Shown here one piece after another: positions 9,082 through 15,670 of a stretch of DNA of 57,520 bases. The notes under the pieces were generated by a model. That model was not told the origin of the DNA, ran no database searches, and saw nothing but the letters and a program-made list of their open reading frames with translations. The translations under genes were made by a program, and so were the position numbers. The DNA is taken from the NCBI GenBank assembly GCA_002862745.1, contig PKDX01000043.1, forward strand, positions 1-57,520, given 5' to 3'. This DNA comes from Bacteroidota bacterium. GTDB lineage: Bacteria; Bacteroidota; Bacteroidia; Chitinophagales; UBA8649. Positions within the stretch are counted from its first letter, which is position 1; each line of letters opens with the position of its first letter.

Positions 9082-10860
9082 TTACCGTGATTTTGGATCA
9101 AGTGCTGAGGCCAAACCTTCCCCTAATAGATTAAACATAGTTACCGTCAAGAAGATGGCAACCCCAGGGAATACGGCAAGCCACCAACCCTCGGGATGAG
9201 CTCTAGAGTCGGCTAACATTTTGCCCCATGTGGCCGTTTCTGCCTCTACCCCAATGCCTAAGAAAGAAAGGGAAGACTCGATCAAAATAGCCGAAGCTAC
9301 ACCAAAGGCAATGGCAATTAATACAGATGTCAGCGCATTGGGTAATGCATGACGGAGGATAATACGAAAGTTCTTAAAACCAAGGGCCTGTGCCGCTTCG
9401 ATAAACTCAAGGTTGCGCACGCGAAGTAATTCTCCTCGCATGAATCGGGCTATGCGAGTCCATGTGGTAAATCCGATAACCGCCATAACAAGGAGTATAC
9501 CTCCACCGCCATCCTCGGATTGGTAAACGGCAACAGCTGCCAAGATCAATAATAGTCGAGGAATGGAGATAAATACTTCAATTACACGAGAAATCCATAA
9601 ATCAACAGGGATATTTACTTCTCCGTTAACCCAATGTTCTCGGTCAAAACGCGCAGCAATGAGGCCACCGAGTTTTGTCGGAATTTGAAATAGTAAGAAG
9701 ATTACTAGGCCTGTAATGAGGAGTTTGAGTTTGCCCATCATGGAAGACAGTTGGCATATATTTCCAAAGTTTGCCCATAGACCGTCTTGAGACGGTGTCT
9801 TTATACAGCTTTCTGCATTTACATCATACTGAAAATAAGAGGCTAGCCAAGGTGCAAGAACTAGCAAGAAAATAATGTTGAGCGCCCACCAAAATCTTTT
9901 ACTTCCATGGTTTTCATCGGTAAAGAAAGCTTGAAGAGAAGGAATATGTCGAAATACCTTAAAGGGTCGCCCATTCCTCATCCAATACCAAATGTTGGGA
10001 ATCAAGAAGACGATAAAAAAGGTATAGGCAATGAGTACTATTCGTAGTAGACTGGCAAGCCCACCAGGGAGCTCCGCTAAAGAGGAATATCGATCAGGGT
10101 TTAACTTTTGATGATAAAAGGTCGGTAACCATAAGAATAAGGCAAACAATAAGAGGATCACAAAGGGGATGGATAACAATAGTGCAATCCGTTTAACCTT
10201 AAGTCGGTTATCTCCAAAATATCCTGCAATCGCACCAACTAAGATCCCGATAATCGAAGCAATTCCCATGGATATTACTCCAACAAGTACAGCGATGCGG
10301 CAGCCATGAATCAGCCTTGACATCATATCTTCTCCTCGAAGGTTGGTTCCCGCTGTATGGCATTTCCAAGCCTTCGGGTTGTTTTTGTCTTCATCGGCAT
10401 GTTCTCCAAGAATCTGTTCGGAACACTTCGGGCTTTTATACTGCACATTGAGTTGATCCGCTTCATTTGGCGAATAGGGAATAAGAGGCCAGATTTGACG
10501 TTCAAGTTTGCCATCTGCTCTCAGCTGTTTCCAGTCACAGGTATTAGGGTCTTTACAAACACTTAGTGAGTCTCCACATGCCTCGCTTTTGTCGCACGGG
10601 CTTTTCCCTCCGAAGGTCTCCTGCCAAGAGGCTTTAAAAGAAGCAATGGCTGGCCAGTGGACTTCGCCGTCAGTGGTTTTTGCCATTATGGGACGATCAT
10701 TGGCTAACATCGGGGCAAAGACCCCAACAAATACAATAAATGCGATGAGTATTAGGGATATTCTTGCAGGGATATTTTTTCGAAACTTCCGCTTAACAAT
10801 TCCCCAGTAGCTCTGATCTAGGGGCTTACTCGCTTTGTTCTTTTGCTTCTTATCGATCAT
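9082..10860 (-). CDS. Peptide-type ABC transporter permease, OppC/DppC-like with insertions
   Basis: Inner-membrane subunit of a peptide/nickel-type ABC importer. The OppC core is clear: a first membrane helix at about 33-52, then HTAGTNLRGEDMMSRLIHG at 168-186, and the ATPase-contacting EAA loop EAAQALGFKNFRIILRHALP. At 592 residues it is about twice the usual 280-330. One insertion, roughly 55-167, is extracytoplasmic and contains six cysteines (89, 95, 102, 108, 146, 167). A second, roughly 218-418, brings additional hydrophobic helices between GAIAGYFGD and the IPRLLLIL segment. It overlaps the upstream OppB-like gene by 4 bp, so the two are translationally coupled. No ATPase gene is in the window. 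Confidence 0.92.
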   Translation of the reverse strand: MIDKKQKNKASKPLDQSYWGIVKRKFRKNIPARISLILIAFIVFVGVFAPMLANDRPIMAKTTDGEVHWPAIASFKASWQETFGGKSPCDKSEACGDSLSVCKDPNTCDWKQLRADGKLERQIWPLIPYSPNEADQLNVQYKSPKCSEQILGEHADEDKNNPKAWKCHTAGTNLRGEDMMSRLIHGCRIAVLVGVISMGIASIIGILVGAIAGYFGDNRLKVKRIALLLSIPFVILLLFALFLWLPTFYHQKLNPDRYSSLAELPGGLASLLRIVLIAYTFFIVFLIPNIWYWMRNGRPFKVFRHIPSLQAFFTDENHGSKRFWWALNIIFLLVLAPWLASYFQYDVNAESCIKTPSQDGLWANFGNICQLSSMMGKLKLLITGLVIFLLFQIPTKLGGLIAARFDREHWVNGEVNIPVDLWISRVIEVFISIPRLLLILAAVAVYQSEDGGGGILLVMAVIGFTTWTRIARFMRGELLRVRNLEFIEAAQALGFKNFRIILRHALPNALTSVLIAIAFGVASAILIESSLSFLGIGVEAETATWGKMLADSRAHPEGWWLAVFPGVAIFLTVTMFNLLGEGLASALDPKSR

Positions 10861-12920
10861 GACTTCTTGGTAAATGAGATTCTTGGATCAACTAATGCAT
10901 AAATGATATCTGCCACGAGAATACCAATAATGGTAAGGGTAGAAGAAATCATAAGCACAGTAAGTACAATAGGGTAGTCTCTAGTTAAAATAGCCTGAAA
11001 GGCAATGCTCCCCATACCCGGAATTCCAAAGATTTGTTCAATAATAACCGATCCGGAAATCATTAATGGGAACAATCCCGCAAAGAGGGTTATAATTGGA
11101 ATTAGTGAATTTCGGAAGGTATGCTTCCATAGTACTTTACCTTCTGGCAGCCCTTTCGCTCGGGCCGTGCGGATAAAGTCCATTCGGACTACATTGACCA
11201 CACCACCGCGCATTTGAATGGCCAAGTAAGCCAAACTTCCAATTGTCACAGTAAACAAGGGTGCTATAAAGTGATATAACGTGCTACCAAATTTTTGCCA
11301 AACGGTATAATTCTCTGGATTAATAGAAATTCTTAGGTCTACGGGACCTCCAACCGGAAATAGGTCTGTCCATGCGCCATAATTCGGACTGGTAAAAAAC
11401 ACAATAACCAAGGTTCCCACCCAGAAGACCGGCAGGGAGTAGAGAATAAAGAGAATAATCGTTGTAACACGATCAAACACTTTACCTTGATATTTGGCCA
11501 TGTACACCCCAAGAGGAATCGCTAAGAAGTAGGCGAGCACTACGGCAAGAATGTTAAGTAGGGCAGTCCAAGGCAGGGCAACGCGAATTTTACGAGCAAC
11601 TTTTTGATCATCAATATAGCTTGTTCCAAAGTCACCGCGTAAAATCCCCCAATGCGGCTGATCTCCAATGTAGTCGGGATAGTAGGTGATTTTCCACTCA
11701 TAACCAGAACGCAACGCAGGATTGATTTTCTTAGGATTGATAGTGTCCCCGTTGTGGAATTCAAAGTAGCCGTTGTTGAGGAGCTCTATAGAAGTTGGAT
11801 TAAAGATTTGATCGTAGGCATCTCCTGGCCTTTCCCACATTTCAATACGGAAATAGGATTTTTCACGATCGGGAAGATCTACTACAAAGGCATCTCCATT
11901 ACTATATTTTTCACGAGCTAATACGACATGTTTTTCCTGAAACCAGGGAGCATCACCAAACAGCCAAGTATGATATTGGCTATGCTTGCCATACCATTTT
12001 AATGATGGTTTGTACAAAAGATTGGTGGTTGGCTCTGTCTTTAGTTTATTGAATGCAAGTTCAAGACCAGAAAACGAAGAATCAAGATGGCTTAATACAA
12101 GAAAACTCGTGTCATACTGTAGGCTGAGCTCAATAAAGGTTGCAGAGTCAAGCACCACGGCACTGCTATCCAAGGAGACGGTAACTATATTACAATGAGA
12201 TGCAATCGCGTTGACTTCCTTTTGGAAGGCGGACATGGCCTCAGCTATGCGTGCACTATCCTCGACTACACCCCATAGGGAATCTTGGTGAATCGTAATG
12301 GATAGGGAAAGATCTTCTCTTAGTGTAAGCGAATCAAGGCTATCAATTGACACACCTTCTGCTAGCCGGAAGGAATGCGTTGTCTGTTGTGCTGTATCAG
12401 ATGTCTTGCGAACAAGGGAATCCATTTTTACTAGGTCCCGTTCGATGTCTTTGGTCCATACTCGTGTTCGAATATTGGTAAAGAGCGTACTCATATCATT
12501 GAGCGCCCTGTTTCGGCGATCACTTGGTATCGCATTATCTAGCGGCTTAACCGTGGCTACTTCAAAATCGTAGAGTGCTTTGTCAAAAATTTGAATGGCA
12601 TCCCAATTACCATACGCTTTAATAAGCTCTTGATAGCGTAAGCGCTCTCTTTTATTGATAATTCGATGGAAGGTGTCAGGGTAGGCCTGATTGGTTAGAG
12701 TGAAGTAGAATGCTGGACGATCTAAGCCTAAATCTCGGCTGACTTTTGCATAGTCTTGACCTCCGCTTTGTTCCATTACCCCGTCGGGATTGGCTTTTCC
12801 TTTGACTTTATTTAAGACGGGGTCTCCGGGAGTAATCAGGCTCAACCCAAAGGTGACAAGAGAAATCACAAACAATGTTGGGATCGCAATGATCAACCGT
12901 TTAAAAATATATTTTATCAT
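10857..12920 (-). CDS. Peptide-type ABC transporter permease, OppB/DppB-like with very large insertion
   Basis: Partner permease of the importer. It has the classic OppB start (MIKYIFKRLIIAIPTLFVIS, then FGLSLITPGDPV and LGLDRP), the conserved GDFGTSY at 429-435, and the EAA-type loop RTARAKGLPEGKVLWKHTFR before GIPGMGSIAF. Total length is 687 against about 310-350 usually. The excess is one extracytoplasmic block, residues about 75-425, containing charged helical and Ser/Asp-rich segments and a recognisable QYHTWLFGD island at 315-323. This suggests two insertions around the normal QYxxWL motif. The gene follows the binding-protein gene by 20 bp and overlaps the next permease by 4 bp. Confidence 0.92.
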   Translation of the reverse strand: MIKYIFKRLIIAIPTLFVISLVTFGLSLITPGDPVLNKVKGKANPDGVMEQSGGQDYAKVSRDLGLDRPAFYFTLTNQAYPDTFHRIINKRERLRYQELIKAYGNWDAIQIFDKALYDFEVATVKPLDNAIPSDRRNRALNDMSTLFTNIRTRVWTKDIERDLVKMDSLVRKTSDTAQQTTHSFRLAEGVSIDSLDSLTLREDLSLSITIHQDSLWGVVEDSARIAEAMSAFQKEVNAIASHCNIVTVSLDSSAVVLDSATFIELSLQYDTSFLVLSHLDSSFSGLELAFNKLKTEPTTNLLYKPSLKWYGKHSQYHTWLFGDAPWFQEKHVVLAREKYSNGDAFVVDLPDREKSYFRIEMWERPGDAYDQIFNPTSIELLNNGYFEFHNGDTINPKKINPALRSGYEWKITYYPDYIGDQPHWGILRGDFGTSYIDDQKVARKIRVALPWTALLNILAVVLAYFLAIPLGVYMAKYQGKVFDRVTTIILFILYSLPVFWVGTLVIVFFTSPNYGAWTDLFPVGGPVDLRISINPENYTVWQKFGSTLYHFIAPLFTVTIGSLAYLAIQMRGGVVNVVRMDFIRTARAKGLPEGKVLWKHTFRNSLIPIITLFAGLFPLMISGSVIIEQIFGIPGMGSIAFQAILTRDYPIVLTVLMISSTLTIIGILVADIIYALVDPRISFTKKS

Positions 12921-12940: not shown

Positions 12941-14704
12941 TTACAAATTGGGTTTCCAAAGGGCCACATTATATCCTGGTCTTGTGGCAAGTCCATATGC
13001 ATTATCAAAGCGTTTGCTAATAATCAACTTTTTGTTCCCTGACCAAAGAAAAATATAGGGACACTCTCGATGGATGATGGCTTGAAATTCTCGATACATT
13101 TCATTGCGCTTTGTCTCATCAAGTTCCCCTCGTATCGAGTCGATAAGCGCATCGGATTGGGCGTCTCCAAATCCAACAAAGTTGGATCCTGCATTTTTAT
13201 AGGAGTCGGTATGCCATAACTGTTTAAAGTCATCAAGTCCTGGATCCTTAATCCATCCCATGATAATCATTTGATAGTCTCTGCGGTCTATTTCTTCAAG
13301 TAAAACCGTCCACTCTCTCGCCTCCATGACAAAATCTACCCCTATACGTTTGAGGGACTCTTTAAAGTGCTTTCCAATTTCTATGGCACTCTGGCTTCCG
13401 GAAGAGTATTTAAAGGAAACCCTTAGTTCAACCCTTTCGCCATCGATTTCTTTTTCTAGAAATTCTGAACCCATTTTCCATCCTGCCGCTTCGAGCAATT
13501 TGGCCGCAGTATCTAGATTGTAGTGGTAAGGCGGTAAATCGCTGTTGTAATATGGCATACTTAGGTGAACAGGAGATTGTACAGGCTTAGCTAGCCCATA
13601 GCTCAAGGTCTTAAGGAGATAGTCTTTTTCGAGGGCAAAGGTTAGCGCTTGGCGTACACGTCGATCACTGAGCACAGGGTCTCGCATATTGAGCCCCAAA
13701 AAAGAGTAGGAGTTGCCGGCTGGAGTGTCAAGCTTGTAATGGGCATCAAGAGTGCCCTCGTCAAGGAATTTACGATAGTCTTTGGCTCGTATTCGATCAA
13801 CGATATCAAACTGTTGTTCAAAGAGTCTTTCTTTAACGGACACATCGGACTCTTCCACCATAAAGACCACTTGGTCTACGTTGTTTTCAAGGCCAATAAC
13901 TTCTTCTTGAACATTATCTCCCCACCAGTCCTTTTTTCTATCTAAAATGAGAAGATCATTTTTTTGGTCCCATTTAATCAACTCGTAGGGTCCTGAACCA
14001 AAAGCCAGCTGGCGTTTGAACATATCTTGTGAAAAGAAGTCTGCTTGCTTGTCTAAGTCTTCATTGCCTTCTTCCAAGTGTTTTGCGCCATTGGCATTAA
14101 GGTCGGTAACGGAGTATGGTCCTAGTAAATCATCGGGGTCATAGCGATATCGGGGCAGTATGTGTTGTGTGGTTAAGGAACTCTCAGCAAGGATGTATTG
14201 CTTCTTGCAATAAAATTTAAAGTGTTTTGGGTCGTAGGGGTCAATCCAAATCGAATCGAGGTCTTCAAAATATGGTCGCTTATGTAGTGTTTCAGAAAAA
14301 GGATTTTTAATCATTCGATAGGTGTAATCCACATCATGGGCTGTAATGGGTGTCCCATTATCCCATGCAGCTTCTTCTCGAATGCGCATTTCCATGACCA
14401 TACCTCCGGAATAAGGACCCTTTGTTAAAATGGTGGTTTTGGGGTTTTCAATGAGCAATACTGGATTCATTGAAAAATCATTATCGTCGATTACCTGAAG
14501 GGTTTGGTAGAGATAATTTTGTATGGTTGAACTGTTGGCATCAGAAGACAACACGGCATTTAGGCTTTCCGGCTTCGAAGGCAAATAGACCCACACACTT
14601 TCCTCTCTTCCTTCATTTTCACCAAGGTTGCAACTGCTGAGTAGAGCACTAAAAACAAAAGCGATTAGGCTGATGTTAAATCCGTATCGAAGCATGGTCT
14701 TCAT
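12941..14704 (-). CDS. Peptide-binding lipoprotein of ABC importer (SBP family 5)
   Basis: Extracytoplasmic solute-binding protein for the adjacent permeases. The true start is ATG 14704 (MKTMLRYGFN), giving 587 residues; the frame extends upstream only to a TTG. A lipoprotein signal ends at LLSSC, so Cys25 should be lipidated. The family-5 framework is visible: SVWVYLPSKPESLNAVLSSD, a domain around AAWDNGTPITAHDVDYTYRM, then VRQALTFALEKDYLL, and YFxLWSG-type C-terminal segments. First gene of a three-gene minus-strand operon. A TTTG at 17 bp from TATTTTG upstream, partly inside the divergent gene, could be its promoter. Substrate (oligopeptide or other) is not decidable. Confidence 0.93.
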   Translation of the reverse strand: MKTMLRYGFNISLIAFVFSALLSSCNLGENEGREESVWVYLPSKPESLNAVLSSDANSSTIQNYLYQTLQVIDDNDFSMNPVLLIENPKTTILTKGPYSGGMVMEMRIREEAAWDNGTPITAHDVDYTYRMIKNPFSETLHKRPYFEDLDSIWIDPYDPKHFKFYCKKQYILAESSLTTQHILPRYRYDPDDLLGPYSVTDLNANGAKHLEEGNEDLDKQADFFSQDMFKRQLAFGSGPYELIKWDQKNDLLILDRKKDWWGDNVQEEVIGLENNVDQVVFMVEESDVSVKERLFEQQFDIVDRIRAKDYRKFLDEGTLDAHYKLDTPAGNSYSFLGLNMRDPVLSDRRVRQALTFALEKDYLLKTLSYGLAKPVQSPVHLSMPYYNSDLPPYHYNLDTAAKLLEAAGWKMGSEFLEKEIDGERVELRVSFKYSSGSQSAIEIGKHFKESLKRIGVDFVMEAREWTVLLEEIDRRDYQMIIMGWIKDPGLDDFKQLWHTDSYKNAGSNFVGFGDAQSDALIDSIRGELDETKRNEMYREFQAIIHRECPYIFLWSGNKKLIISKRFDNAYGLATRPGYNVALWKPNL

Positions 14705-14752
14705 AGATATTTCTTTAACGGTATTCAATAAATAACCAAAATACGCAATCTC

Positions 14753-15670
14753 ATGGTTTCCAAAGGGAATTCTGTTCTTGTTACTGGAGCAACAGGGCTC
14801 GTGGGAAGGCAGCTTTGTAAAGAACTTTTAAAATGCGGCTATTCGGTGCGTGTGTTATCGAGGTCTAATCGAAATATGGAGGGTTGTACATGTTTTTTAT
14901 GGGATATTGAGGCCAAAAAAATCGATCCGAAAGCATTTGAGGGAGTTTCTGCCATTATTCACCTGGCCGGCGCGGGAGTTGGTGATCGCCGTTGGACTAC
15001 ACGCTATAAACAACAAATCTACGATAGCCGTATAGAGAGTACTAGGCTACTGATTAATACGCTGAAAACTATCGACCACACGGTAGATTCCTTTATATCG
15101 GCAAGTGCGGTGGGCTATTATAATGATCATGGTTCAGAATGGATTACCGAAGAAGCTCCTATGGCAGAAGAGTTTATCGCAAGATTGTGCAGAGATTGGG
15201 AGTCGGAAGGGCAAGGTGCTGAGGCCTTGGGTATTCGTTACGTAGCCTTGCGAATTGGCCTTGTACTCAGCAGAAAAGCAGGGTTTTTACCCAAAACAAC
15301 GATGACACTTTCCCTTCGTATGCTCAATTACTTTGGCAACGGACAACACTATTATGCATGGATTCATGAAAAGGATGTTGTGAACATGTTTTGCCATGCA
15401 TTAACCAATTTGTCGGTGCGTGGTGTGTACAATGCAGTAGCTCCCAACCCAATTCCTCAAAAGAAGATGCTTGCCGAATTAAAGAAGGTTTTATCCAAGG
15501 CATTAGTCATGCTTCCTGTGCCAACCTTTGCTCTACGCATTGTGCTTGGAGAAATGGCACGTGTAGTGGTCTTTAGTCAGCGCGTCAGTGCTCAAAAAAT
15601 ATTGGATACTGGATTTACCTTTTCATTCGATAAGGTGGATGAGGCCTTTTCTGATTTGTATTCGGCATAG
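14753..15670 (+). CDS. TIGR01777-family SDR (epimerase-like, YfcH type)
   Basis: Extended SDR of 305 residues. The nucleotide-binding motif is VTGATGLVGRQL near 9-20. The family-typical IIHLAGAGVGDRRWT and the SRIESTRLL, SASAVGYY and EEAP segments match the TIGR01777/YfcH group, with a C-terminal DUF1731-like part (PNPIPQKKMLAELKKVL). The physiological substrate of the group is unknown, although a nucleotide-sugar epimerase fold is expected. Starts at ATG 14753, 48 bp from the divergent lipoprotein gene, and ends 5 bp before the convergent helicase gene. Here a small hairpin GCCTGATTAGGC sits at the junction. Confidence 0.9.
   Translation: MVSKGNSVLVTGATGLVGRQLCKELLKCGYSVRVLSRSNRNMEGCTCFLWDIEAKKIDPKAFEGVSAIIHLAGAGVGDRRWTTRYKQQIYDSRIESTRLLINTLKTIDHTVDSFISASAVGYYNDHGSEWITEEAPMAEEFIARLCRDWESEGQGAEALGIRYVALRIGLVLSRKAGFLPKTTMTLSLRMLNYFGNGQHYYAWIHEKDVVNMFCHALTNLSVRGVYNAVAPNPIPQKKMLAELKKVLSKALVMLPVPTFALRIVLGEMARVVVFSQRVSAQKILDTGFTFSFDKVDEAFSDLYSA

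Follow-up and report, generated by a model that had tools for sequence, protein, structure and literature searches.

The paired OppB- and OppC-like permeases encoded in the window (the whole 57,520-nucleotide stretch of contig PKDX01000043.1 that was analysed) carry an order-level extracytoplasmic OppB domain and additional OppC helices, and amount to a previously undescribed form of a known importer, not a new machine. Their enlargement is two-layered, inserts found at the level of the order having been extended by further additions at the same sites in the source genus; as Opp-type permeases with real inserts, they form the distinct subclass of peptide importer which the initial annotation had suspected. 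The usual view of type I importers is that the conserved permease core bears short accessory loops, and no description of enlarged OppB or OppC proteins in Bacteroidota was found in the searchable library. Taken jointly, it is probable (roughly 0.6) that the system belongs to the type I ABC importers of the Opp/Dpp/Yej kind, with peptides as its presumed substrate, and that the enlarged OppB domain, to judge by its position, serves the docking of the solute-binding protein (SBP) and the sealing of the cavity.

Composition of the operon and of the importer

The two open reading frames, both on the minus strand and overlapping by 4 bases, lie exactly where the initial annotation had placed them (Table 1), and the length of their products, 687 and 592 aa, agrees with the claim that the permeases are about twice the usual size. 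The SBP encoded in the same operon is recognised by Pfam (SBP_bac_5, 185 bits), has the lipobox LSSC and, with 595 aa vs 598-615 in complete relatives, is not co-enlarged as far as length is concerned. A divergent nucleotide-sugar-epimerase-like gene, so labelled from sequence resemblance only, adjoins the SBP gene in two genera (window 14753-15670; L105:29-913), and in some relatives from the order a tandem pair of SBP-like lipoprotein genes precedes OppB (L105:986-4709). Directly 3' of OppC, relatives from the order encode a protein of about 487 aa (L105:7637-9097; L106:5639-7105; L107:6323-7789; L108:3900-5456), the L105 copy of which has no Pfam match; a distant homologue (25% identity) is encoded elsewhere in the window's genome (C19:20633-22000), and the protein may be a partner of the importer not described so far.

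The cores of both permeases are intact, because BPD_transp_1 (Pfam) spans residues 467-682 of OppB and 416-591 of OppC, in both cases far above the cut-off; cores with EAA-type coupling regions, as in Opp/Dpp-type permeases, are present in both proteins (Pfam, Foldseek), so that the functional appearance ascribed to them from their core motifs is upheld. Sequence matches in the PDB fall mainly on the C-terminal core of OppB and on split stretches of OppC, and the nearest solved structures found by Foldseek are DppB/OppB for the OppB model and DppC/OppC for the OppC model (TM-score 0.92 over the target for E. coli OppC, 8z21_B). Among the NCBIfam models, Opp4B, Opp2B and YejB match OppB, all below their cut-offs, and the curated YejB, YejE and YejF models are not passed (176 vs a cut-off of 445, 123 vs 439 and 551 vs 834 bits, respectively).

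The genome is 99% complete at 2.06 Mb, and searches of it with PF00528, PF00496 and PF08352 recovered a single permease pair (PF00528), a single SBP gene (SBP_bac_5) and a single protein with oligo_HPY, an ATPase. This ATPase is a fused OppD-OppF of 604 aa with two ABC_tran domains in addition to oligo_HPY, unlinked to the permease operon (contig C22; L114:5341-7152); its score against the GsiA model exceeds that against YejF. Since the single permease pair, the SBP gene and the fused ATPase together would form one importer, the system looks complete.

Table 1. Features of the SBP-oppB-oppC region, in window coordinates
Feature	Position	Strand	Basis and remarks
Family 5 solute-binding lipoprotein (SBP)	12941..14728	(-)	SBP_bac_5; first gene of the operon, just upstream of oppB
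OppB-like permease, 687 aa	10857..12920	(-)	ORF; BPD_transp_1 at 467-682
DppB-type scoop motif position, OppB 34-63	12732..12821	(-)	Model helices; E. coli DppB scoop position
OppB insert 1, residues 68-314	11979..12719	(-)	Alignment; helical domain, scoop to alpha3; order-wide, larger in source genus
Genus-specific portion of OppB insert 1, ~171-276	12093..12410	(-)	No counterpart in order relatives; low model confidence
OppB insert 2, residues 325-424	11649..11948	(-)	Genus-specific; QYHTW-GDFG interval
OppB transmembrane core with coupling-helix region, residues 425-687	10860..11648	(-)	Pfam; DppB/OppB structures by sequence and fold
OppC-like permease, 592 aa	9082..10860	(-)	ORF; OppC_N and BPD_transp_1; Foldseek
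Post-TM1 extracytoplasmic segment of OppC, residues 54-170	10351..10701	(-)	YejE-like domain, ~40 extra residues
Cys-rich stretch, OppC 89-108, C-x5-C-x6-C-x5-C	10537..10596	(-)	Same cysteines in L016 and L017
OppC TM2-TM3 loop insert, residues 217-419, four extra hydrophobic helices	9604..10212	(-)	Lengths; model; hydropathy
Two genus-specific OppC helices, ~267-348	9817..10062	(-)	Absent in order relatives; pLDDT < ~60
OppC transmembrane core, residues 420-592	9085..9603	(-)	Pfam

The inserts of OppB

The landmarks PGDP, QYxxW and GDFG were read on alignments of all fetched relatives. From PGDP to GDFG, OppB measures about 394 residues (280, QYHTW and 109); the canonical relatives, of 321 aa, have 40 and E. 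coli YejB has 78, and the figure of some 350 extra residues before GDFG first proposed is therefore right. The interval from PGDP to QYxxW is 280 residues vs 29 in the canonical relatives and 67 in YejB, and that from QYxxW to GDFG is 109 vs 6-31 in relatives (6 in the canonical ones and in YejB). Both inserts are wholly extracytoplasmic.

In the AlphaFold2 model, built from 54 relatives (mean pLDDT 78.5; core about 90 or more), two short helices of the scoop type, 34-40 and 52-63, are predicted between TM1 and the pre-GDFG helix, with lower confidence around 46-49. Insert 1 starts directly after the scoop position; its predicted elements are a strand (73-77), five helices (90-103, 106-124, 133-152, 156-170 and 277-295) and a second strand (305-309) which leads into the pre-GDFG helix. 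The pLDDT is mostly 77-97 in residues 70-170 and 277-310, and mostly <70 in the genus-specific parts (~171-276 and ~330-420). The order-level domain has invariant residues, such as GNW.

The order-level OppB inserts and OppC helices have no credible relative in Pfam or the PDB. Indeed, a Pfam scan of 54 OppB and 42 OppC sequences returned the permease domains and scattered weak matches only; DUF3482, a recurrent weak match which in the query falls on TM2, was rejected as being far below cut-off. In the PDB, the order-level OppB domain found only coiled-coil-like chance matches (best E 2e-4, a lectin neck), and insert 2 only short weak matches to designed proteins. When genomes were searched for the inserts, much as the initial annotation had advocated, a profile of the order-level domain matched 3 of 395 genomes from across the phylum, each of them a member of the same order, and an 89-aa probe for insert 2 found nothing beyond its own genome among 395 genomes of the class. 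In one relative, whose OppB has 576 aa (L109:1566-3293), the extracytoplasmic OppB domain contains an acidic stretch of low complexity (ADSTATENEGTEVADSTIMEDEDVAA).

The OppC segment and the additional helices

OppC had been credited with a six-cysteine extracytoplasmic insertion. The six cysteines between TM1 and GT(D/N) are real (89, 95, 102, 108, 146 and 167) and are kept in both sister-genus genomes with full-length OppC (L016 and L017); indeed, all nine OppC cysteines are conserved between the members of the genus. A wholly new insertion is nevertheless ruled out, because a query-free profile of relatives aligns with residues 14-171 of E. coli YejE at 114 bits, with a characteristic N(D/E)KPL...G..YFP segment: the C permease thus has a YejE-type extracytoplasmic domain to which some 40 residues, cysteines included, have been added (117 residues from TM1 to GT(D/N) vs 77-81 in YejE and other Bacteroidota), the remainder being ancestral.

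The extra hydrophobic helices noticed at the outset are confirmed by model and hydropathy: four lie between GYFGD and VDLWISR, an interval of 202 residues here that measures 2 in YejE, as in most of the other Bacteroidota examined, and 63-84 in most relatives from the order. The loop which joins the two order-level helices contains the genus-specific pair. The largest OppC insert thus consists of membrane helices with only short outside loops and, the number of helices being even, the topology of OppC would be preserved. The mean pLDDT of the OppC model is 69.3; values are mostly 60-90 in the core and, the Cys-rich stretch excepted, in the extracytoplasmic segment, and below about 60 in the genus-specific helices. 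In one genus (L103:409-2211; L104:1475-3286), OppC reaches 601-604 aa by a hydrophobic N-terminal extension of about 180 aa, a separate route to a larger OppC, unrelated to the TM2-TM3 helices.

Authenticity and conservation of the inserts

The window belongs to a draft assembly of 72 contigs, so that an assembly or frameshift artefact, or an accidental fusion with neighbouring genes, had to be considered. This explanation can practically be dismissed, because near-identical full-length copies occur in sister genomes and purifying selection acts on the inserts: a Saprospirales MAG (PAPS01000027.1; L016/G004) encodes OppB and OppC of the same lengths, 93% and 95% identical over their full length, in the same gene order with the same neighbours; a second independent assembly (L017) has the complete OppC; and dS far exceeds dN throughout. 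The enlarged permeases are therefore genuine.

Between the genus members, dN/dS is 0.08/0.36 (~0.22) in OppB insert 1, where 38 of 245 residues differ, and dN is 0.02 and dS 1.04 (ratio ~0.02) in insert 2, where 5 of 105 do; the helix insert of OppC has a dN of 0.05 and a dS of 0.62 (ratio 0.08-0.11). The corresponding values of the cores are 0.014/0.65 and 0.005/0.71, with 6 of 263 residues differing in OppB and 0 of 174 in OppC, the latter count being the same in L016 and L017.

Distribution and the question of matched enlargement

The first layer, found in most enlarged relatives from the order, comprises an alpha-helical OppB insert of about 150 aa, from the scoop to the pre-GDFG helix, and two additional helices in the TM2-TM3 loop of OppC; the second, found in the source genus alone, comprises about 90 aa within the OppB domain, a further OppB insert, likewise of about 90 aa, two more helices in OppC and the conserved Cys-rich stretch. 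The term lineage-specific, initially applied to the inserts, thus fits the additions of the genus, whereas in the order at large smaller forms of the two enlargements are common. Across 150 genomes of the order, most good matches are open frames of about 450-530 aa for OppB and 400-470 aa for OppC, and in another genus of the family to which the source genus belongs the two proteins are of the size usual for the order (507 and 444 aa). With enlargement of OppB defined as a scoop-to-alpha3 segment >120 residues, 55 of 72 aligned OppBC pairs have it and 56 have the OppC helices; 53 pairs combine the two and 14 lack both. In the other Bacteroidota examined, the OppB segment is mostly 29-39 residues long (up to 69 in a few) and the OppC helices are mostly missing. 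Outside the order, L065 and L068 have the OppC helices and an OppB segment of 81 residues. In the OppBC tree the query is weakly placed (support 73, branch 0.73).

It had been proposed that the matched enlargement of the two partners reflects contact of the inserts with each other, with the SBP or with an outer-membrane partner, in a matched envelope assembly. The lengths of the inserts are indeed correlated (Spearman 0.76 across 72 pairs, uncorrected for kinship), both genus-specific enlargements co-occur, and the SBP is a lipoprotein; the tree, however, yields only 4 independent contrasts, of which 1 is concordant, the OppC trait changing in 1, and the argument for contact is accordingly one of co-occurrence confounded by descent. 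The traits also dissociate, G128 (L109/L090) having an OppB segment of 282 aa with a normal OppC, L134 one of 249 aa without OppC helices, and L126, L065 and L068 the OppC helices with a small OppB segment; with so few independent events, enlargement as a linked trait of the two proteins is not supported. Moreover, the OppC insert consists mainly of membrane helices, the SBP is not enlarged, and neither of the published types of surface-export signal, K-(D/E)2 and Q-A-(D/E)2, follows its lipobox cysteine. Contact between the inserts fails as a deduction from matched enlargement, and the assembly model as a whole is improbable.

Proposed role of the OppB domain

In E. coli DppABCDF, the scoop of DppB (residues 32-62, from TM1 to alpha3) enters the cleft of DppA and closes the cavity, and its deletion brings ATPase activity down to about a quarter (PMC12136057). 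An undescribed order-level domain thus occupies the site which in E. coli DppB is important for peptide retention and sealing. Within the order, the scoop-to-alpha3 stretch of OppB would have gained a helical extracytoplasmic domain, OppC would have gained a two-helix hairpin between TM2 and TM3, and both would have been enlarged further in the source genus. The OppB domain probably widens the docking surface for the SBP and helps to seal the cavity once the peptide has been released, in a role like that of MalF-P2; the extra OppC helices likely pack outside the conserved core, as peripheral elements. The start of insert 1 right after the scoop position and the confident fold of its order-level part support docking and sealing, whereas the low model confidence of the genus-specific parts and the SBP without matching enlargement speak against it.

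A less probable alternative, though one of some weight, is neutral growth, in which the scoop-alpha3 link and the TM2-TM3 loop of OppC tolerate insertions, ratcheted up without new function. The sizes of the inserts vary widely at the same sites, the insert of G128 (L109) is of low complexity and acidic, as expected of a tolerant loop, L103 and L104 have an unrelated N-terminal extension, and insert 1 has diverged more quickly than the core (38/245 vs 6/263 residues); the invariant residues and confident fold of the order-level domain, an insert 2 as conserved as the core and the retention of all nine OppC cysteines argue against such drift. The presence of a single such system in the genome and the high conservation of insert 2 might also suggest a sensor or regulated importer instead of a plain nutrient importer, but no known sensory domain emerged from the Pfam scan and the SBP and ATPase are ordinary, which makes this very improbable. 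A bolder extension of the docking reading, quite unlikely, is that the OppB domain could be an order-restricted docking module for lipid-anchored SBPs held away from the inner membrane, insert 2 and a disulfide-rich OppC segment forming a periplasmic stalk or cage around the SBP. The scoop regions of 29, 39, 67, about 180 and 280 residues offer a natural size series in which the role of the region can be tested.

Comparison with known systems

MalFGK2 is another type I importer in which one of the permeases bears a large extracytoplasmic domain, MalF-P2, which contacts the binding protein according to work cited in PMC3150292. The likeness is one of role only: no homologous domain was recognised in OppB, the order-level domain having found no MalF when searched as a profile against the PDB and the Foldseek matches of MalF to the OppB model being weak (13-16% identity). 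Moreover, in the topology of MalF the insertion site of P2 differs from that of OppB.

With DppABCDF and OppABCDF of E. coli the system shares the core fold, the motifs and the position of the scoop between TM1 and alpha3. It differs from them in the length of this region (a scoop of about 30 residues there, about 394 from PGDP to GDFG here), in the number of TM helices (six per permease there, about ten predicted in OppC here) and in its ATPase (two separate proteins there, one fused protein here).

YejABEF of E. coli, an importer of microcin C and oligopeptides, differs in that YejB (364 aa) and YejE (341 aa) have neither the helical insert in the scoop region nor the TM2-TM3 helices, and in that the YejF gene adjoins that of YejE, whereas here the ATPase is unlinked and better matched by GsiA. 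Nevertheless, its composition is the same, namely an SBP, two permeases and a fused double-ATPase; its scoop region is already longer than the canonical one (67 vs 29 residues), and the extracytoplasmic domain which follows TM1 in YejE is shared by the OppC described here.
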